Source: a virus. Taken from it: 35,330 nt of DNA. The stretch is taken from positions 1 to 35,330 of the IMG/VR virus record IMGVR_UViG_3300043464_000140. The stretch is one strand, 5' to 3'. The notes under the pieces were generated by a model that made no database searches, was not told the origin of the DNA, and saw only the letters and a program-made list of their open reading frames with translations. This document shows, one piece after another, positions 181 to 35,330 of the stretch. The position numbers and the translations under genes were made by a program. How positions within the stretch are numbered: the stretch's first letter is position 1; every line of letters begins with the position of its first letter.

Positions 181-776
181 AAATCAACAAACATAAACAT
201 TCCAACGCCATTATCTTTAAGCCATGTTCCTGATGTATCGCCAGCAATGGTTACAGTTTTATATTCAAAAGTATTAGCAGAACTTATAGTAAAGTTTGTT
301 ACATAACTTCTATCTAGTCCGTTGTTTGATATTGCAACCGAATAAGTGCCTGTAACGCTTGAACGCACCCAAAAAGATACTGTTACTGTTTTAGCATCAG
401 CAGTTCCCCAACCTAAATCGGCAACATTAAACCCTTCAATTTGCTGATTAAAAATTGATACTTGCCCTGATGTTGGAGATGCTCCTGTGCCTACAGTAAC
501 GATAACACTATTTATAAAACCAGCAGGTGCTGTTGTTGAGCGTTGAGTAGTATGTCCTGAACCTTGTGCAATACGAACTTGGAATCTATCAACAGGATAT
601 ACAGGGCTACTTCCTACACTAATAGAAGCACCAGCATTACGCTGGTCAATCACCATCGCACCATTGATGATTCTTGACTTCATATTTACAGAAGGTGTAA
701 CTGCATTAGCGGATATAGCACCGCTATACATCGGTGTCGTAATTCCGTTTGTGCCGTCAATAGTTACTGGTGGCAT
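1..776 (-). CDS. Tail fibre protein, N-terminal part (continues across the circular junction)
   Basis: The gene starts at ATG 776 with a strong AAGGAG ribosome site and runs open to the window edge. The protein begins MPPVTIDGTNG and carries the fibre signatures NGAMVIDQRN, a YPVDRFQV segment, VSFWVRSS and YITGVQLEVG. These are typical of carbohydrate-binding, jelly-roll-like fibre tips in environmental phages (family knowledge). The frame continues exactly into the segment ending at 34796; joined, the gene is 1131 nt, or 376 residues. Its start overlaps the end of the upstream homing endonuclease by 13 nt. It probably contacts the host surface. Fibre identity is fairly secure; the receptor is unknown. 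Confidence 0.8.
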   Translation of the reverse strand, partial: MPPVTIDGTNGITTPMYSGAISANAVTPSVNMKSRIINGAMVIDQRNAGASISVGSSPVYPVDRFQVRIAQGSGHTTQRSTTAPAGFINSVIVTVGTGASPTSGQVSIFNQQIEGFNVADLGWGTADAKTVTVSFWVRSSVTGTYSVAISNNGLDRSYVTNFTISSANTFEYKTVTIAGDTSGTWLKDNGVGMFMFVDLGSGTDREATAGSWGAGWKTRTSGSVQLAATSGATFYITGVQLEVGSTATSFDYRPYGTE

Positions 777-1426
777 GATTGCTCCTTACGCTGTTGATGC
801 CATGCCTTTACAGCTTGGCTAATTTTTAATCTATCTTCATCTGTGTAAACACGCTTTGCTCTTGATGCTCTCATCTTAGCCTTTGTTTCTTCGGACATCT
901 TTTTACCTTTGTTAGGATGCACCTCAAGCGAATCCCAATGCTTACGCTGTGATTCACGCATCTTGGCTTTGGTTTCTTCGGATGCTTGTTTACCAAGATT
1001 ATGCCCAACACGACCTTTAAGGGCTTCTGAGAGCTTTCTTTTGCCTTCCTCAGGATAAGCCTTGCCTTTCATGCCCGACCTACTGCCAAGCCGTCTAGTA
1101 TGGATTCTGCCAGTCAATGCTAGGCTATGCTTGCGTCTGCGTTCTTCAGTCCATGTAGAGCCTTCAGAACCGCCCAATTCAATATTGTAGCCATTAGGTA
1201 CTATTGTATCCAATACCGCTATCCAAAAGCGTTCTACTGCGTTTAGCGTGGCTCTATTTTCAATACTTGTACAGAGTGGTTCGTAGTCAAAGTTATCTTT
1301 GCCATGTAGCTTATACGCACTTTTCATAATGCGACCATGCCCAATCGGTAGATGTGGGTTGATAGTCTGCCCGACATATTGCTTGCCGTTTAGCTTATTG
1401 GAAACTAAGTAAACTTGTGCGTTCAC
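764..1426 (-). CDS. GIY-YIG homing endonuclease (free-standing)
   Basis: This 220-residue protein has an N-terminal GIY-YIG nuclease domain: VYLVSNKLNG near residues 5-14, then YVGQT at 18-22, a conserved E in ERFW and the GYNIELGG segment near 80-87. The C-terminal half carries about five short repeats of the type S-E-E-T-K-A-K-M-R, resembling NUMOD3 DNA-binding modules of phage-encoded homing enzymes. The start is GTG at 1426, with AGGAG inside the end of the preceding gene. The stop overlaps the following fibre gene. It is inserted between fibre-module genes with no intron boundary recognisable, so it is a free-standing mobile gene expected to cut a related allele lacking it. The family call is strong; the target site is unknown. 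Confidence 0.88.
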   Translation of the reverse strand: MNAQVYLVSNKLNGKQYVGQTINPHLPIGHGRIMKSAYKLHGKDNFDYEPLCTSIENRATLNAVERFWIAVLDTIVPNGYNIELGGSEGSTWTEERRRKHSLALTGRIHTRRLGSRSGMKGKAYPEEGKRKLSEALKGRVGHNLGKQASEETKAKMRESQRKHWDSLEVHPNKGKKMSEETKAKMRASRAKRVYTDEDRLKISQAVKAWHQQRKEQSCHQ

Positions 1427-6560: not shown

Positions 6561-6917
6561 TTATCCTGCAAACGGGGTATTGAACGACATAAATTCAGGG
6601 CCACCCTGATTCATTAGCATCTGCTGTTGACTTGTCACTGGGTTCATAGCATCTTGCATATACTGACCCTGTTGACCATATGCGCCTTGAGGTGTACCAC
6701 CGTAAGGGGCTTTTTGTCCCTGTCTTAACATTTGTGCAAGAGCCATAGGGTTAATACCTAGTGAATGCCCTTGTCCTACTGGTGAACCTAAGTTCTGTTG
6801 CAACAATGCACGGTGCATTTGTTCTTGAGCAGACTCATTCATAAACACAGGTCGCTGACCCGATACATCCTGCATATTTTCCATCATCAACGGTCTTTGG
6901 GGTGTATACGGATTCAT
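6561..6917 (-). CDS. Small Gln/Met/Pro-rich hypothetical protein
   Basis: This 118-residue protein is unusually rich in Q, M, P and G (for example YGQQGQYMQDAMNP and SQQQMLMNQGG), with almost no hydrophobic core, so it is probably disordered. The start at 6917 has GAGG upstream, and the end lies 3 nt from the next start. It sits in the tail/internal-protein operon and may be a virion or assembly factor. No homologous family is recognised from the sequence alone. Confidence 0.6.
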   Translation of the reverse strand: MNPYTPQRPLMMENMQDVSGQRPVFMNESAQEQMHRALLQQNLGSPVGQGHSLGINPMALAQMLRQGQKAPYGGTPQGAYGQQGQYMQDAMNPVTSQQQMLMNQGGPEFMSFNTPFAG

Positions 6918-6919
6918 GT

Positions 6920-7645
6920 CTAAACCTCTGTAATTTGACGAATTTTGTTTATTTCTGCTGTTACTACATTATCGATTCTTTTTAGCAAATTGACTACTGC
7001 TTCGTGCTGTTGTGGGTAATGCTTTTTAATGTACTCAAAGCGTTGTTTACTGTCAGCAATATAAGCGGTGCAATTCCAACAATCTAGGCTAGAGTGCGAC
7101 ATCGATAGACGCTCGGTAATTTCAATGTCTTTGCTCTTTAGGTACTCGACTACATCTTGGTCAGACCAATGCAGTATTGGAAAAACATATTCAATGCCAT
7201 CAATGACTTCACCTGACTTAATAGGGTTTTTGTGTGACTCGGACTGTCTTTGACCCCGAACAACGCAGGTAATCCCTAGTTCTTGTATCTTTTGGTGCGC
7301 TGGTATCCATTGGTTCTCAGCACAGCAATCAAAGTAAGTGCGTAATTTAATGTCTTTTTGGCTTGTAACTGCTTGTCCAATATTGCTGAAATTGACAGGT
7401 AATATGTCTACAGGGTGACCGTTTACCTCTAACGATAACGGCTGGTTTGTGCGAACTTCTACAAAATTAGGAACATTTAACTGATCCATGTAATCTTCGA
7501 TTTCAGGGAAGTTTGCACCTGTATTGACCCATATTAGGGTCATTTTGTCTAAATAATCACGATATAACTCTAAACACGCAAGCGAATCTCTACCGCCTGA
7601 AAACATCAAGGCAATCTTTTCATGGCGGTTAAAAAAGTCTTGCAT
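6920..7645 (-). CDS. PAPS/APS reductase-like PP-loop protein with [4Fe-4S] cysteine motif
   Basis: This 241-residue protein has an N-terminal PP-loop (SGGRDS, residues 16-21) typical of adenylyl-binding enzymes of the CysH/DndC group. Cys107-Cys108 and Cys189-x-x-Cys192 fit the CC-X80-CxxC pattern that ligates a [4Fe-4S] cluster in assimilatory APS reductases. The C-terminal ECG(I/L)H catalytic-cysteine tail of true reductases is absent, so sulphonucleotide reduction is uncertain; a sulphur-transfer or modification role is possible. It is embedded among virion genes: its start overlaps the upstream stop (TAATG). It is a likely auxiliary metabolic gene. The fold call is strong, the substrate unknown. 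Confidence 0.82.
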   Translation of the reverse strand: MQDFFNRHEKIALMFSGGRDSLACLELYRDYLDKMTLIWVNTGANFPEIEDYMDQLNVPNFVEVRTNQPLSLEVNGHPVDILPVNFSNIGQAVTSQKDIKLRTYFDCCAENQWIPAHQKIQELGITCVVRGQRQSESHKNPIKSGEVIDGIEYVFPILHWSDQDVVEYLKSKDIEITERLSMSHSSLDCWNCTAYIADSKQRFEYIKKHYPQQHEAVVNLLKRIDNVVTAEINKIRQITEV

Positions 7646-8472
7646 TAGAAAAATGCACCAGCCATTAATGCTGTACCACCAAGACTATAGAGTCCTTGGG
7701 TATTAGCGTTTTGGGTAGCTACTTGGGCGTTGTAAGCGTTCATTGCCGCATTACCTTGCGCTTGTGCCGCACCGAGTAAGTCAGGGCCAGCGGTGACTGC
7801 TTGGCTGGCTGGGTTTACAAATTGTGGGCTAGTTACTTGTGCGCCTGAACGAACAGCGTTTAGGGTGTTAATAGGTTCATTTCTAAGGTACGCTTGTTCT
7901 TGTAGGGCTTGACCTCTAGCTTGTTGACCTACGCCAAAACCTTGGGTTGTTGCGCCCAAAAGAAGGTCATTCTCACGCTGGGCTTGTTGCATCATGGCAC
8001 GGTCATACGCTTCAGAACCAATGTCTATGCCTTGATTAGCTAATTGCTGTTGTAATCGGTCACGATTTTGTTGAAGCTGTGGGGCAAGCCTTTGCATATA
8101 GGCATCTTGGTACGACTGACTAGGATTAAAGCCTGTGCTTGGTAATTGGCTGACATCAAATGGCTTGTCAATCATGTTTTTTACATACCCAAGACCTTTT
8201 TCGCCTAGTTCACCAGTGCCAATGCTTAGTTGGTTTTGTATGTCTAATAAGCGTTGTTGGTCAGGAGCAAGCGTCTGAGTAGCTGTCCAAGTTGGATTAC
8301 CGTACTTATCCTCACCTGTCATTGCATAATTAACATTGCCATACGGTGTAATCTGATTTACACGGTTTGCGGCAATATTAGCCCGTGCCGCATCTAAATT
8401 ACCCGATGCAGTTTCTTTAGCCGCCCCTACATAATCAGGTGGTGGCGGTGCTGACGGTGCGCTCTTTCCCAT
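7645..8472 (-). CDS. Putative tail/virion structural protein
   Basis: This 275-residue protein has a short Pro-rich leader (SAPSAPPPPDYVGAAKET), then an Ala/Asn/Gln-rich helical body with a QLLANQG-type repeat region near residues 130-180. It ends with a hydrophobic segment (GLYSLGGTALMAGAFF). ATG 8472 lies inside the end of the GNAT-like gene (38-nt overlap) behind AGGAGAGAAG. Proteins with this leader and a hydrophobic tail are common next to tail genes in short-tailed phages and may be minor internal proteins. No enzymatic motif is seen. Confidence 0.55.
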   Translation of the reverse strand: MGKSAPSAPPPPDYVGAAKETASGNLDAARANIAANRVNQITPYGNVNYAMTGEDKYGNPTWTATQTLAPDQQRLLDIQNQLSIGTGELGEKGLGYVKNMIDKPFDVSQLPSTGFNPSQSYQDAYMQRLAPQLQQNRDRLQQQLANQGIDIGSEAYDRAMMQQAQRENDLLLGATTQGFGVGQQARGQALQEQAYLRNEPINTLNAVRSGAQVTSPQFVNPASQAVTAGPDLLGAAQAQGNAAMNAYNAQVATQNANTQGLYSLGGTALMAGAFF

Positions 8473-8875
8473 ACTTCTCTCCTAAAAACCTACATTTGTC
8501 TTTGGTTAATGTTAATAAGACCATATCCCCATCGGGGAACGCATCTTTAATCCGTGCTTCTTCAATAAAACCTAACTTGTAATTGAACCGCATTGCATCT
8601 TCGTTACTTGAATTGGTTGGCCCAATCAGCTTATTTACACCCAATTGTACAAAAGGATAGTCAAAAATAGTAGCTAGGAACTGTTTAGACATCTGCCCGT
8701 CAATGGCAATGTGGGTCATTATTGAGGTCTTGGTATAGCCTTCGTACCACACGCCCGCAATGACTGTTCCTGTCTTATCTAATAACCCAATACAGCTTGA
8801 GTTTTCAGGCGTAAACACTCCGTTTACACGGTTTGCTACCCATTGCCCGATTAGTTCTTTATCAAAACAGAGCAT
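8435..8875 (-). CDS. GNAT-type acetyltransferase-like protein
   Basis: This 146-residue protein has the organisation of a GNAT fold. An N-terminal strand-helix region is followed by a central strand (VIAGVWYEGYTKTSIMTHIAI), a helix, then N-S-S-N-E-D-A-M-R-F-N-Y-K-L-G-F, which matches the conserved N-x-x-A-x-x-x-Y-x-x-x-G-F element, and a final beta pair (DMVLLTL). The acetyl-CoA loop (Q/R-x-x-G-x-G/A) is not clear. It overlaps both neighbours inside the tail operon. It may acetylate a host or virion component; substrate unknown. Confidence 0.65.
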   Translation of the reverse strand: MLCFDKELIGQWVANRVNGVFTPENSSCIGLLDKTGTVIAGVWYEGYTKTSIMTHIAIDGQMSKQFLATIFDYPFVQLGVNKLIGPTNSSNEDAMRFNYKLGFIEEARIKDAFPDGDMVLLTLTKDKCRFLGEKYGKERTVSTATT

Positions 8876-14713: not shown

Positions 14714-15112
14714 CTATCTATAGTTAAGTTTTGAATACGCTATTTCAGCAATCTGCCGTTTACGGGCTTCTTGGTCTTTACGGCTAAATTCATGGGTTTT
14801 CTGCTGTGTAGGCACATCGTTGCCTAGTTCGATGCAATTGTTGCGCTTTAGGTTCTCACGGTGCTTAGAACGGCTAGATACCCATGTGCCGTCTGCCATG
14901 CTTATATGACCCTCTATGTCAGGTATCACCGTTGGGGCTTCCTTGGGTGTCATCTCCAGCTTTGCTTGCCATGCGCTGTCAGCTTCCTCGCCCTCAAAAG
15001 GTAGATTCCAGTAGGCTAGGTACTTTTCACGGTCATCAAACTTGCTTTGGTCATATTCTTCGTGATCGACCTTGCAATGCGGGCATTTAACGGTGACTTT
15101 GACTAAAGCCAT
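14714..15112 (-). CDS. Zinc-ribbon-like hypothetical protein
   Basis: This 132-residue protein starts KVTVKCPHCKVDH, a single CxxC (residues 10-13) that could be half of a small zinc ribbon; no second CxxC is present. The C-terminal half has GTWVSSRSKHRENLKRNNCIELGND, a motif seen in small proteins next to capsid genes in several phages, followed by a basic tail. It lies between the glycosyltransferase-like and scaffold genes. ATG 15112 follows AGGAGA. Function unknown. Confidence 0.6.
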   Translation of the reverse strand: MALVKVTVKCPHCKVDHEEYDQSKFDDREKYLAYWNLPFEGEEADSAWQAKLEMTPKEAPTVIPDIEGHISMADGTWVSSRSKHRENLKRNNCIELGNDVPTQQKTHEFSRKDQEARKRQIAEIAYSKLNYR

Positions 15113-15864
15113 TACATTCTCCTTATGATGTCAGGTAATTGGTCGTATTCTTCGGGTCTAAGTAGGCAAACGCTGTCATACCAGCGAGCATTCTTCCACC
15201 GCCAACAGACAAATTCCTCTTTAGGTAGTAAAACCACGCATTTAAGGCCTAATGCGCCAGCCAAATGCGCTGTTCCTGTGTCTACGGTCACAATTCCCTT
15301 CATCGCCTTCATATGCGAAGCGGTTTGCACCCAGTTTTTCTTCCATCCATCGTCAGGCAAGGGGTGAAATAGCCCATCGGAGTTAGGATTTAGGCTATAA
15401 GCATCATCACCGACCAGTTCTGCCATGTGTCGGTAGTCAATTGACTTGATGTAGTACAGGGTTTGCTTACTTGCTTCCCAATTTACCCCGATCTTGGGCG
15501 GGATATTGCTAGGCAGGGCGTGTAAATAGCCTTCTGAACCCACAATCTTCTTACGGGTCACGGGAAACATAGCTTTGACTAGCGGGTGGGATAACGAAAT
15601 ATAGTACGGGAGCGACATTGACCCTATCCAGTAGTCTGATTGGGTTGCCGCACCTTCTGTCAAGTCATTACTAAACACATCTACGCTGTGTAATTGACCT
15701 AAAAGGTGGTGAAGTGTGCCTTCCTGTAAGACTACGACCTGCTTTGCGCCTAACGCTTTTAGGGCAGGCAGGAATCGGGCAAACATTAGGATGTCACCAA
15801 ACCCTTGCTCCATCTGTACGGTGATAGATTTGTTAATTAATGGTTCGCCTCTCCATACGGGCAT
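15112..15864 (-). CDS. Glycosyltransferase family 9-like protein (coding frame extends upstream to 16020)
   Basis: The first ATG gives 250 residues containing QMEQGFGDILMFARFLP (residues 17-33), the nucleotide-sugar-binding entry motif of GT9/heptosyltransferase-like proteins, and VDTGTAHLAGALG (~195-207), their conserved C-terminal signature. The frame stays open upstream and encodes AYEHLHAGRYESGFRLFEYRW, a TPR-like segment that normally precedes this domain in phage and bacterial homologues. The real protein therefore very probably begins upstream, with no ATG, GTG or TTG available. It could glycosylate a virion or host surface component. Family confidence is good; the start is unresolved. 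Confidence 0.75.
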   Translation of the reverse strand: MPVWRGEPLINKSITVQMEQGFGDILMFARFLPALKALGAKQVVVLQEGTLHHLLGQLHSVDVFSNDLTEGAATQSDYWIGSMSLPYYISLSHPLVKAMFPVTRKKIVGSEGYLHALPSNIPPKIGVNWEASKQTLYYIKSIDYRHMAELVGDDAYSLNPNSDGLFHPLPDDGWKKNWVQTASHMKAMKGIVTVDTGTAHLAGALGLKCVVLLPKEEFVCWRWKNARWYDSVCLLRPEEYDQLPDIIRRM

Positions 15865-22528: not shown

Positions 22529-22557
22529 ATTGTAGGCTATTTTTGATTATTAAACAA
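22529..22557 (-). promoter_or_regulatory. Candidate promoter for the terminase/late operon
   Basis: Leftward -35 TTGTTT (22557-22552), 17-nt spacer, -10 TACAAT (22534-22529), about 33 nt before the terS ATG. The -35 lies inside the end of the preceding gene. The sequence TTAAGATAAGTTAA (22516-22529) abuts the -10 and resembles the operator-like repeat at 28895. It is a reasonable sigma70-type match but is not supported by any other data. Confidence 0.45.
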
Positions 22558-24969
22558 TTTCTCTAACATATCCCGTCTACTATCTTCATCGGTTATAGCC
22601 ATTGCTGGTGGTACAGCAAATAGTGGTTGGCCTTTAGATAGGAAGGATTCTTTAGCTTCGGAGGTTAGGTCAAAGTAATGTACATTTTCGCCTTTACCTT
22701 CTTTGGCGGCCATGTAAGCGTCAAAGTCTGCGTAATCAGTAGGTTTGCCGCCTTTTACATCAAGTTTTGTTTGACCTACCTTTAAACCGTGCTTTTTACC
22801 GTACTTATTAATAAAGTCGGGCAGGATTTTGTCGTAAAAGCCTTTCATGCCTTCACCGCCAATTTCAAGATCAGCGTTGTTTAGGATGATTTCATCGTTT
22901 TCATTAGGCTTGGTTTCGTTTAACTTACGGGCGGCCTCTTTACCAATGTAATCGTCTACCTTATCTAAAGGTACATCTTGCATCATTACTTTTTGGTTGT
23001 TTTTGTCAAATGCTCGTAAAGTGCCTGTACCTTTGTCATAAATAACACGGTCTACATACTTAGCTAGGTTATAACGCTCTGCTTGCTGTTTACCAGTAGT
23101 AAATGCTACACGGTCATAACCACCTTCTGCGGCCATTTGCATGGCTCGTTTCATGGTTAGTTCTTGCCAGTTTTTCTTAAATGGTGCGTCAGGAATTGCA
23201 TTTTTTAACTTGCTTTCCTCTTTACGCAAAGCATTTAAGCGGTCATCCGCAGATGTGTACATATCTAGGATTTCTTGCGGTGCATCCATACCTTTATCAG
23301 TGTATGGTTCTGCATCTTTTAAAGCTTTGGTTTTAATTTCGACTAATCTTTTTTGTTCTTCAATGTTGTTATCAATGGCTTTTTGGTCAAAATACCCTTT
23401 TTTGCGCCCAGTTTGATGCCAGTCGGATTGGATTTCTTCTACAAATAGGGTCTTTTTACCATCTATGGTGCGGTCTGTAACACGCATATGGGCAAGAACA
23501 TTTGGCTCATCAAAGTGGCCTGATTGGTATTCTTTTTGACTACCTGCTTTGTATTCTTCGTTTTTTAAAAACTTTGTGCGCTCATTGTTTAATTCAGTGC
23601 GCTTACCAATTAATTGACCGTATTCTTCCCTGTTGCCAGCTTCTTTTAGTTGTGCAAGTTTGTCATTAACAGCATCTAGTTCAGCTTGTTTTGGAAAGGG
23701 TTTTGGTATGTATTCATTGGGGTATTGAATCAACACCTCACGGTAGTTTTCACCGTTAGGAAGTACATAATCAGCGTATTTAGGGCCTTCTTGCTCGTAG
23801 GTTAATAAACCACGGTCTAGCGCATCCTCTCGAATTCTAGCCTCTACATCACTAACATTGTATATACCGCTACGCCCAGTAGAAACTTCACGCCCTTGGG
23901 GGTCTTTTATGTAATATCCAACATCATCATTACCCGACACTTCGTACCCTAGATCATCGTAATAAGAACGGTATGGGTTATCGTAATACACATCTCTAGC
24001 ATATTGTTCAGAGCGTTCACGAATCAAATCATCTACATAATCGTCAACACGATTCATATCGCTAAGATCAGCATTTGCGGGATTTACTTCTAAATCATTG
24101 TATGCTTGTAGTCTTAATTCTTCTAAAAAATCAGGGTCATCGTTTTTGATGCGAAAGTATTCATCATTGGCAATGTCATCCATGTAAACGGTATCATCAA
24201 TAACATCACCACCTCGTAATTGGTAATCCTCTACTGTTCCTGCTTTATTGTAGTTTTCATCTAATACTTTTTCTTTAAGAGTTACGGGGTTTTCTCTTAA
24301 ATATTGGGCGATTTGTTCCCGTGATACTTTAGGATTGTTTGTCAAGAATGTATCTAATCCCCGTGTGCTAACTTCTTCCTGCTTTACGCCTTGAGTTTTA
24401 AGTAACTGCGCTAGGTATTGTTGACCTGTACCTTTGGGGTTTTGCAGGTTCATTACTGCTTCGTCTAGCGGTGAATAGAATCCTAGTTCATTCTTAGTTG
24501 GTTGGCGTAATGCTTCAGCTATCTTAACTGGTGATGGCTCTGTAATGTTTGCAATTGCGCCTGTTTTGGTCAGGTAGTTCTCAGCCATTTCTGCGGCTTT
24601 AGGTGCTAATGCCCGTGCTAATGGTTTAGCGGTCATCTGCGCTGTACCGACTGCTGGTAATGCCACATTAGCTACTACATCAAATGTCGGTTCAAAACGC
24701 CCTGTTTTCCATACATCAAGGCGGTTACCACCAGTGCCTACTACGGATGATGGGTTTCTAAATGGATAGTCACCATATGACCAACGGTTTACTTCTTCGG
24801 GTGCTTGGCCTAAAAATAGGTCACCAATACCTGTACCGCCAAAAAAAGGTACATAGTCTTTGACTTCGTACTGATTACCAAACTGTTTGGCTCTGCGTAG
24901 TAAGTCTGCAATCTTGCCAGCCGTAGGGTTTACTACGGGTTGCGCTTGGGCTATACCAAACTCATCCAT
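22537..24969 (-). CDS. Large polyvalent-protein-type (LPD-like) phage protein
   Basis: This 810-residue protein has an N-terminal region (1-150) with Gly/Pro-rich structural-looking segments, and a Tyr/Asp/Glu-rich acidic middle (~250-400). The C-terminal region has FVEEIQSDWHQTGRKKGY near 505-520, FKKNWQELTMKRAM near 595-608, VAFTTGKQQAERYN near 615-630 and EGMKGFYDKILPDF near 725. This set of motifs recurs in large polyvalent proteins of phages and mobile elements, whose C-terminal domain is of unknown activity (family knowledge). Such proteins are often carried into the cell with DNA. It lies just before terS, separated by a promoter. Confidence 0.6.
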   Translation of the reverse strand: MDEFGIAQAQPVVNPTAGKIADLLRRAKQFGNQYEVKDYVPFFGGTGIGDLFLGQAPEEVNRWSYGDYPFRNPSSVVGTGGNRLDVWKTGRFEPTFDVVANVALPAVGTAQMTAKPLARALAPKAAEMAENYLTKTGAIANITEPSPVKIAEALRQPTKNELGFYSPLDEAVMNLQNPKGTGQQYLAQLLKTQGVKQEEVSTRGLDTFLTNNPKVSREQIAQYLRENPVTLKEKVLDENYNKAGTVEDYQLRGGDVIDDTVYMDDIANDEYFRIKNDDPDFLEELRLQAYNDLEVNPANADLSDMNRVDDYVDDLIRERSEQYARDVYYDNPYRSYYDDLGYEVSGNDDVGYYIKDPQGREVSTGRSGIYNVSDVEARIREDALDRGLLTYEQEGPKYADYVLPNGENYREVLIQYPNEYIPKPFPKQAELDAVNDKLAQLKEAGNREEYGQLIGKRTELNNERTKFLKNEEYKAGSQKEYQSGHFDEPNVLAHMRVTDRTIDGKKTLFVEEIQSDWHQTGRKKGYFDQKAIDNNIEEQKRLVEIKTKALKDAEPYTDKGMDAPQEILDMYTSADDRLNALRKEESKLKNAIPDAPFKKNWQELTMKRAMQMAAEGGYDRVAFTTGKQQAERYNLAKYVDRVIYDKGTGTLRAFDKNNQKVMMQDVPLDKVDDYIGKEAARKLNETKPNENDEIILNNADLEIGGEGMKGFYDKILPDFINKYGKKHGLKVGQTKLDVKGGKPTDYADFDAYMAAKEGKGENVHYFDLTSEAKESFLSKGQPLFAVPPAMAITDEDSRRDMLEKLFNNQK

Positions 24970-28949: not shown

Positions 28950-29159
28950 ATGAGTGAAATAGAATCGCAAACAAATGACTTACTTCAATTACAGGGTCAG
29001 CTAGAAAAAATTTTTGATGTACTAGAAGGTGGCTCTGATCTATCCAAGGAACAAATTGACTTACTGCGCTATGGCTGTGGCTTTGCGCCAGTTAATCGTC
29101 AGCGTGATTTTTTACAAGGTGTATTTGCAGACCTTAACCCATACGGGAGATCAATATGA
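28950..29159 (+). CDS. Small acidic early protein
   Basis: This 69-residue protein starts at ATG 28950, behind AGGAG and about 32 nt after the predicted promoter start. It is an acidic, helical protein (NDLLQLQGQLEKIFDVLEGGSDL) with a C-terminal YGRSI. It overlaps the next gene by 4 nt (ATGA). No domain recognised. The GTG at 28914 in the same frame lies before the predicted +1, so I discarded it. Confidence 0.65.
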   Translation: MSEIESQTNDLLQLQGQLEKIFDVLEGGSDLSKEQIDLLRYGCGFAPVNRQRDFLQGVFADLNPYGRSI

Positions 29160-29950
29160 CCCCACAAGTACAGTTAGTAACGCCTGAAATGGCAAAGGTT
29201 TATCTATCCAAAAACACCGATAACCGCCAGCAAAGGGGTTGGTATGTGTCTTGTCTAGCCAAAGCTATCAAGCGTGGTGATTGGATATTGACCCATCAAG
29301 GCGTAGCCTTCTCTGAGTCAGGCAAACTGATTGACGGGCAACACCGTCTAGAAGCTATTGTAGAAGCCGATACGCCCGTGCAGATGCTTGTCACCACTGG
29401 CGTGAGCAACGATGCTTACAAGGTCTTAGATAACGGCATTAAGCGTACATTGTCAGACCTGACAGGCATTAATGTTAGGACTACCGAGGTATGCCGTATC
29501 TTGGCTAGATTGGTCTACGGTGGTAATTCTGTTACTACCGCAGAAGAATGCCTAGAAATCTATAACACGGGTGTAGGAGAGGTATCCGATAGCCTAGTCG
29601 AGTATTGCGGTAAACAGATTAAAGTCTATTCCTCTGCACCTATGAGGACTGCGGCAGTCTGTTTAATCCTTGATGGGTATAACCAAAACTACATTAAGAA
29701 CCTGTACGCAAACCTTTGTCACCAGCAATTTAACGAACTGCCTAATGTAGCGCAAAACTTTATTCGTCAGGTTACCGATGGCAGGGTCAGCGCAAACAAG
29801 AAGTCAAACCTACTAGCACGGGGTCTAAAAGTATTTAATCCTGAGTATCAAGATGTAGCTAGACTTCAGATAAGTGATTCAGAAGAAACTGCCGCTAATG
29901 CGTATTGCAGAACCATTGTTAGAAACCTATTAACGAAAGAGAAAAAATGA
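29156..29950 (+). CDS. DGQHRL-motif (ParB/Srx-like) protein
   Basis: This 264-residue protein has LSKNTDNRQQRGWYVSCLAKAIKRGDW in residues 17-43 and KLIDGQHRLEAIVEADTPV at 57-75. The DGQHR motif (60-65 here) characterises the ParB/sulfiredoxin-like fold found in many phages and some DNA-modification systems such as DndB and DpdB-like proteins. The rest is helical. Its role could be nucleotide-dependent DNA handling or modification control, not proven. It is the second gene of the early operon, coupled to its neighbours at both ends. Confidence 0.72.
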   Translation: MTPQVQLVTPEMAKVYLSKNTDNRQQRGWYVSCLAKAIKRGDWILTHQGVAFSESGKLIDGQHRLEAIVEADTPVQMLVTTGVSNDAYKVLDNGIKRTLSDLTGINVRTTEVCRILARLVYGGNSVTTAEECLEIYNTGVGEVSDSLVEYCGKQIKVYSSAPMRTAAVCLILDGYNQNYIKNLYANLCHQQFNELPNVAQNFIRQVTDGRVSANKKSNLLARGLKVFNPEYQDVARLQISDSEETAANAYCRTIVRNLLTKEKK

Positions 29951-34795: not shown

Positions 34796-35330
34796 TTATA
34801 ACTCCGCAGAAAAACCAATATAAGTAGATGAAGTTGCCGCACTAGCAATGTCTAACCGAACAGCCACACCTGTTGTTCCTGAGGCTACTGGAGTGCAATA
34901 GATTAATGCTGAATTTGTTGTTCCCCCATAAATTGTAAATGTAGATGTTGTGGTTGTATAACTACCATTACTAATACCAAAAGTATTGGAAACATTGCTT
35001 ACATAAAGAGAAGGCGAAGTTCTCATTGTTGTTTTAAATGGCAAAACATATTCAACTTGCGAAGAAGAATAGACAAGAGCAGTACCTATCATTTGGTCTT
35101 GTGCGCCATTTCCTTGTGCATGAAGATAAAAATACCTCTGACACAAAGCCAATTCAGTACCATAAGGTCTGTAATCAAAGCTAGTAGCTGTAGAACCTAC
35201 CTCTAGCTGAACTCCTGTGATGTAAAGCGTTGCTCCTGATGTTGCGGCTAATTGCACAGAACCTGATGTTCTTGTTTTCCAGCCAGCACCCCAAGAACCA
35301 GCAGTTGCTTCTCTATCTGTGCCTGAGCCT
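34796..35330 (-). CDS. Tail fibre protein, C-terminal part (continues at 776)
   Basis: The frame is open to the right edge and ends with TAA at 34798-34796. It encodes YITGVQLEVGSTATSFDYRPYGTELALCQRYFY, the classic fibre-tip end motif, followed by a beta-rich C-terminal domain. The GTG at 35257 is internal, not a real start. Translation runs on from the gene beginning at 776: the joined frame is 377 codons with no stop. Only L versus F distinguishes the 180-nt overlap at protein level. Confidence 0.8.
   Translation of the reverse strand, partial: GSGTDREATAGSWGAGWKTRTSGSVQLAATSGATLYITGVQLEVGSTATSFDYRPYGTELALCQRYFYLHAQGNGAQDQMIGTALVYSSSQVEYVLPFKTTMRTSPSLYVSNVSNTFGISNGSYTTTTSTFTIYGGTTNSALIYCTPVASGTTGVAVRLDIASAATSSTYIGFSAEL
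35151..35330. repeat. Right copy of terminal near-repeat
   Basis: This copy matches bases 1-180 with six substitutions and no gaps. Relative to the left copy it carries the alternative codons CTA, ACA, CTT, ACA, GGC and GGT; only CTT (Leu, against TTT Phe) changes a residue. The alignment runs exactly to the window end, so the true length of the overlap cannot be judged beyond 180 bases. Confidence 0.85.

Follow-up and report, generated by a model that had tools for sequence, protein, structure and literature searches.

The locus and its gene

The window, that is, the whole stretch of 35,330 nucleotides analysed from the virus record IMGVR_UViG_3300043464_000140, carries a direct repeat of 180 bases with 97% identity at its two ends (1-180 and 35151-35330), and because the ends overlap in this way, a circularly permuted or closed and apparently complete genome of about 35.15 kb is suggested. 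The gene under study (6920-7645, minus strand) starts with ATG, encodes 241 residues and adjoins genes on both sides. Upstream of it lie the gene of a virion structural protein (7645-8472, minus strand; phrog_6121) and that of a GNAT-type acyltransferase (8435-8875, minus strand; phrog_4470), whereas the downstream gene (6561-6917, minus strand), whose product has no cysteine, was recognised by flanking-gene comparison as the other edge of the site at which the studied gene is inserted as an accessory cassette. Elsewhere in the window, a GIY-YIG/NUMOD3 homing endonuclease-like gene is located in the tail gene region (764-1426, minus strand; TIGR01453, E 3.2e-18), a weak match to glycosyltransferase family 9/heptosyltransferases lies within the virion gene block (15112-15864, minus strand; E 9e-4 to 1.5e-3), and an 810-residue protein is encoded beside the terminase genes (22537-24969, minus strand), residues 479-727 of which match the 2564-position profile phrog_7348, labelled 'endolysin'.

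The 241-residue product matches Pfam PAPS_reduct (PF01507) above the curated cut-off (E 1.4e-21; 77.8 bits against 22.5) as well as phrog_424 (E 3.5e-30), a profile that matches 39/39 members of the family assembled here, and the gene is a further member of this known phage family, PHROG 424. Its PP-loop reads SGGRDS (residues 16-21; 7583-7600, minus strand). Six cysteines are present, at positions 24, 107, 108, 127, 189 and 192, among which the tandem pair C107-C108 (7322-7327, minus strand) and the C189xxC192 pair within DCWNCTAY (7070-7081, minus strand) are predicted cluster ligands, separated by exactly 80 residues between C108 and C189. The first-pass annotation, made from the sequence without database searches, had read SGGRDS together with CC-X80-CxxC as the cluster motif of assimilatory APS reductases, and the spacing it gave is exact. 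The bare pattern is weak evidence, since CC-X(70-90)-CxxC strings also occur in several non-genic frames of the window; it gains meaning from the invariance of the four residues among relatives, described below. The same annotation had pointed out that the catalytic tail ECG(I/L)H is missing, and indeed no cysteine follows position 192. A search of all six frames of the window revealed neither CG[ILMV]H nor RAGRW, and the tail is therefore not supplied by another gene, a circumstance that the annotation had named as one that would overturn its reading.

Relatives and their distribution

Relatives were collected by sequence patterns, some of which included DCWNCTA, DCCAENQW or the PP-loop, and the conservation of these motifs is therefore partly a matter of ascertainment. 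With this qualification, C107, C108, C189 and C192 show no variation across an alignment of 39 sequences in which identity falls to about 26%, and the complete CC...CxxC set is found in 100/100 distinct relatives. C24, which is adjacent to the PP-loop, is about 90% conserved in the 39-sequence alignment and C127 is not conserved; a conserved free cysteine able to carry a persulphide was not seen there.

Annotated phage records yielded 11 matches, mostly from Burkholderia Bcep22-like phages, at 35-37% identity over nearly the full length. In IMG/VR, 58 close loci were detected, and at least 349 loci were retrieved by a profile search in which the PP-loop alone could retrieve a locus and from whose pattern CC was absent. 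A DCWNCTA/PP-loop search of 84,980 prokaryote genomes returned a single close relative, which lies on a short contig, possibly itself phage, within a Rhizobiales metagenome-assembled genome. The other prokaryote matches among those listed were either distant, mostly with 21-29% identity across most of the protein, or short matches to the PP-loop. On this sequence evidence the PAPS-like subfamily appears to be essentially phage-borne, and a cellular source was rejected.

The closest named relatives are gp67 of BcepIL02 and gp65 of JC1 (Lessievirus/Bcep22-like; PHROG 424), which share 36-37% identity with the window protein over nearly the full length (E ~1e-47), together with the invariant motifs and the gene order. 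These phages belong to another lineage, and their records name the product a PAPS reductase, an activity that is unlikely given the missing residues discussed in the next section.

Comparison with sulphonucleotide reductases

The comparison set consisted of eight true APS reductases from bacterial genomes, extracted by a filter that required CC and a CG(ILM)H tail; all eight strong loci yielded an APS reductase frame that passed it. The two cysteine pairs of the window protein align with those of the Mycobacterium APS reductase 7LHR and of the genomic enzymes, and the spacing from CC to CxxC is 77-83 residues in the phage relatives vs 79-83 in the true reductases. The TGxxFPE and G-x-R stretches are also common to the window protein and Fe-S-type CysH (2GOY, 7LHR), as are the fold and the CC...CxxC spacing.

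The catalytic features are distributed quite differently. Catalysis by sulphonucleotide reductases depends on the lysine that follows CC, the arginines of RAGRW and the tail cysteine. The substrate lysine at CC+4 and the RAGRW segment were each found in 8/8 true APS reductases vs 0/100 phage relatives, and the same counts were obtained for the ECGLH tail, which the extraction filter had required of the reductases. Conversely, the ATP-type PP-loop SGGxDS occurs in 99/100 phage relatives and in 0/8 true APS reductases. The window protein also stays far below the curated cut-offs of APS_reductase (32 vs 235 bits), PRK02090 (50 vs 154) and cysH (40 vs 165).

These data bear directly on the reading that the annotation 'PAPS reductase/cysH' conveys, namely a working APS/PAPS reductase that acts as an auxiliary metabolic gene and boosts host sulphate assimilation. 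Phage cysH and the close JC1 homologue are read in this manner in the literature (PMC9144972, PMC10914622, PMC9301287), and the shared fold and APS-reductase-type cluster cysteines would agree with it. However, the tail cysteine, RAGRW and the substrate lysine are missing in all 100 relatives, the PP-loop is of the ATP type, the curated reductase models are missed by a wide gap, and matches to CysC, CysD or CysN were not found in a Pfam scan of the 47 genes of the genome. Because the three reductase features are absent while an ATP-type PP-loop is present, the sequence makes a sulphonucleotide reductase very unlikely, and the metabolic reading built upon it is highly improbable. The first-pass annotation, which had set APS reduction aside because of the tail, is thus upheld on broader grounds.

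Predicted structure and related PP-loop enzymes

An AlphaFold2 model built from 32 sequences (mean pLDDT 92) predicts a CysD/CysH fold, in which the loop with C189 and C192 is the least certain part (block pLDDT 71). Structure prediction and comparison had been proposed at the outset as a check on the family assignment, and the best matches were CysD and the APS/PAPS reductases: the ATP sulfurylase subunit CysD (1ZUN) is the best solved match (Z 14.7; 2.5 A over 146 residues), followed by the reductases at Z ~13. Further fold matches include the sulphur transferases LarE and NcsA, among other PP-loop enzymes, as well as GMP synthetase, FAD synthase and NAD synthetase, which adenylate without sulphur. 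CysD has an SGGKDS PP-loop, and its sequence match to the window protein covers the N-terminal part with the PP-loop and one short segment further on, leaving the CC and CxxC columns unaligned. Taken at the level of sequence and model, the window protein joins the PP-loop of ATP-using members with the cluster site of APS reductases.

The combination of SGGKDS, CC and CxxC found in the phage family is also present in the archaeal proteins PRK13795/PRK08557, whose function is unknown and whose sequence scores for the window protein are similar to those of CysH. They differ in being larger and multi-domain, with open frames of about 640 residues, and in the stretch after CC. Two Nezhaarchaeota loci (L153 and L154) encode proteins of this type, likewise of unknown function, in which SGGKDS, CC and CxxC occur together within open frames of about 640 residues.

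A PP-loop and a cluster site are likewise shared with DndC/SspD, members of the same superfamily, and the product could accordingly be imagined as a phage DndC/SspD that phosphorothioates phage DNA against host restriction. Its Fe-S PP-loop architecture and the matches of SspD and BrxP models to 31/39 and 35/39 family members speak for this idea, and the late-gene position would fit a modification made before packaging. In the window protein, however, the SspD and BrxP matches stem chiefly from the N-terminal stretch with the PP-loop, and DndC models reach only 1-3/39 members at marginal values (E ~1e-4) and leave the window protein unmatched at E up to 1. The published DndC ligands are Cys146/273/280/283 (PMC12193691), from which the tandem CC differs. 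As detailed below, a DndD/DndE-like partner was not found by Pfam among the 47 genes, and the lower frequency of DNA methyltransferases among carriers of the gene is not significant. Membership of the DndC family is not supported, and phosphorothioation by an enzyme of this type is improbable. The initial label 'CysH/DndC-like' is supported in its first half, as regards the APS-reductase-type cysteines, but not in its second as the name of a family, given the few DndC matches, the different ligands, and dndD/E and desulphurase genes that were not found in the genome.

An accessory cassette among virion genes

The order acyltransferase, virion protein, PAPS-like gene, virion protein is the same in BcepIL02 and recurs in divergent contigs. 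At 70 loci the PAPS-like gene separates the two flanking virion genes, usually by 700-740 bases, whereas at 94 loci without it the flanking genes adjoin or overlap each other, or are at most about 200 bases apart, with no further gene between them; the upstream virion gene then directly abuts the next gene. The occurrence of replacement genes at the insertion site was thus rejected, the slot being simply empty in all 94 loci. When mapped on the tree of the neighbouring tail protein, the cassette switches between presence and absence at least 11 times along well-supported branches. Among 12 records without the cassette at this locus, several of which may be fragments, a second copy elsewhere was not found. 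In one record, IMGVR_UViG_3300046779_000327 (45505 bases), virion genes occur in two regions (L258 and L275), of which only one includes the PAPS-like gene; this reflects either an assembly that mixed two related phages or a genuine duplication.

Patchy presence of this kind could be expected of a decaying or neutral passenger. This explanation is scarcely credible, since the dN/dS values of the gene against its relatives (0.01-0.18) indicate strong purifying selection and the motif residues are invariant in 100 members.

Absence from mass spectrometry of virions is no proof of absence from the particle. In JC1, the homologue gp65 was not among the proteins detected in purified virions, while its neighbours gp64, gp67 and gp68 were (PMC9144972, Table 6). 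The first-pass annotation had correctly placed the gene among virion genes, yet this location does not make the product a virion part, because the cassette is removable and the JC1 homologue went undetected (PMC9144972). With a gene that is optional at its locus, and on the same virion data, the PAPS-like gene is best described as a removable accessory ('moron') enzyme under purifying selection and not as an evident part of the virion.

Search for partner genes

Among the 47 genes of the apparently complete genome, cysteine desulphurase, thioredoxin, CysC/D/N and DndD/E-like proteins were not found by Pfam, and no dedicated partner of the PAPS-like gene emerged; host IscS could replace the missing phage desulphurase. 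Several candidates were considered and rejected. The GNAT acyltransferase (8435-8875) is equally present in phages with and without the cassette, and for this reason it is not a dedicated partner. A DGQHR/ParB-like protein (29156-29950, plus strand; phrog_5931), which carries a GKLIDGQHRLEAI motif reminiscent of DndB and has no NCBIfam match, was dismissed as a DndB-like partner because it occurs in only 2/29 carrier records, both of them close relatives. In a first comparison of five carriers with six non-carriers, C5-methyltransferases seemed commoner without the cassette; over 47 records, many of which are possibly fragments, DNA methyltransferases were present in 13/32 carriers and 9/15 non-carriers, a difference that is not significant (p = 0.35), and an exchange of the cassette with DNA methyltransferases was likewise rejected.

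Proposed activity and competing substrates

The reading that we tentatively favour, with a probability a little below even, combines sequence, model and analogy: the gene would encode a phage Fe-S PP-loop ATP pyrophosphatase, whose probable role is to activate a substrate by adenylation so that it can receive sulphur, the likeliest substrate being nucleic acid. A [4Fe-4S] cluster is predicted to be held by C107, C108, C189 and C192, in the position that the cluster of APS reductases occupies. The enzyme would bind ATP and split it into AMP and pyrophosphate, and the substrate would be transiently adenylated next to the cluster before sulphur is placed on it. This sulphur would be mobilised by a cysteine desulphurase of the host, which is invoked since the phage was not found to encode one. 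The nature of the substrate is the least certain step; by analogy, it may be phage DNA before packaging or host tRNA. Known PP-loop enzymes with a cluster transfer sulphur to nucleic acid, DndC/SspD acting on DNA and TtcA/NcsA on tRNA, and for this reason nucleic-acid thiolation is the leading candidate activity. Sulphur transfer to DNA or RNA by the window protein, which the first-pass annotation had also suggested, is plausible on this analogy.

Three observations weaken the case for thiolation, namely that a conserved free cysteine is missing, that the cluster cysteines number four rather than three, and that partner genes were not found in the genome. In TtcA/NcsA, one iron is free to bind sulphide. 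The four cysteines invariant in 100/100 relatives contrast with the three-cysteine cluster of these tRNA thiolases, and all four iron sites of the phage protein may be protein-ligated, unlike in TtcA/NcsA.

The missing free cysteine would also agree with an Fe-S PP-loop enzyme whose target, adenylated or otherwise modified, is a small metabolite, a protein of the virion or a signal in host defence; sulphur transfer might then play no part at all. This reading is unlikely but quite conceivable: the gene sits among virion genes in many divergent phages, and many PP-loop enzymes adenylate without sulphur, including the GMP synthetase, FAD synthase and NAD synthetase found among the fold matches. 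On the other hand, phages without the cassette keep the virion genes, which abut, so that the virion proteins show no obvious dependence on it, and clusters in PP-loop proteins otherwise serve mainly sulphur chemistry.

Extended to the whole family, the favoured sulphur-transfer reading would imply that Fe-S ATP pyrophosphatases restricted to phages, widespread across hundreds of viral contigs and recorded there as the 'conserved' auxiliary metabolic gene cysH, modify phage DNA or host RNA with sulphur in a manner not described so far. A single protein would then suffice, without the multi-gene machinery of Dnd/Ssp systems, a generalisation that we regard as distinctly doubtful.

Implications for viral cysH genes

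Genes of the PHROG 424 type usually go by the names PAPS reductase or CysH or are counted as auxiliary metabolic genes (PMC9144972, PMC10914622, PMC9301287). Few viral auxiliary metabolic genes are reported as often as cysH, which is taken as a sign that viruses influence sulphur cycling (PMC9301287, PMC10914622); the function of viral cysH is listed as not validated (PMC12713726). What is new here is a residue-level case that the annotated chemistry is very unlikely for the PAPS-like subfamily, argued from sequence, together with a clean map of presence and absence. Such a residue-level case against reductase chemistry was not found in the literature searched, a search that did not take in the annotation critique of Martin et al. 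(2025). Because the sequence of the subfamily argues strongly against reductase chemistry, inferences on sulphur cycling that are drawn from viral cysH need a residue check first. The window protein and its hundreds of relatives from environmental phages probably have a function other than sulphate reduction, perhaps the addition of sulphur to DNA or RNA. If it is true that the enzyme thiolates nucleic acid, it would constitute a compact phage modification system, testable by mass spectrometry.
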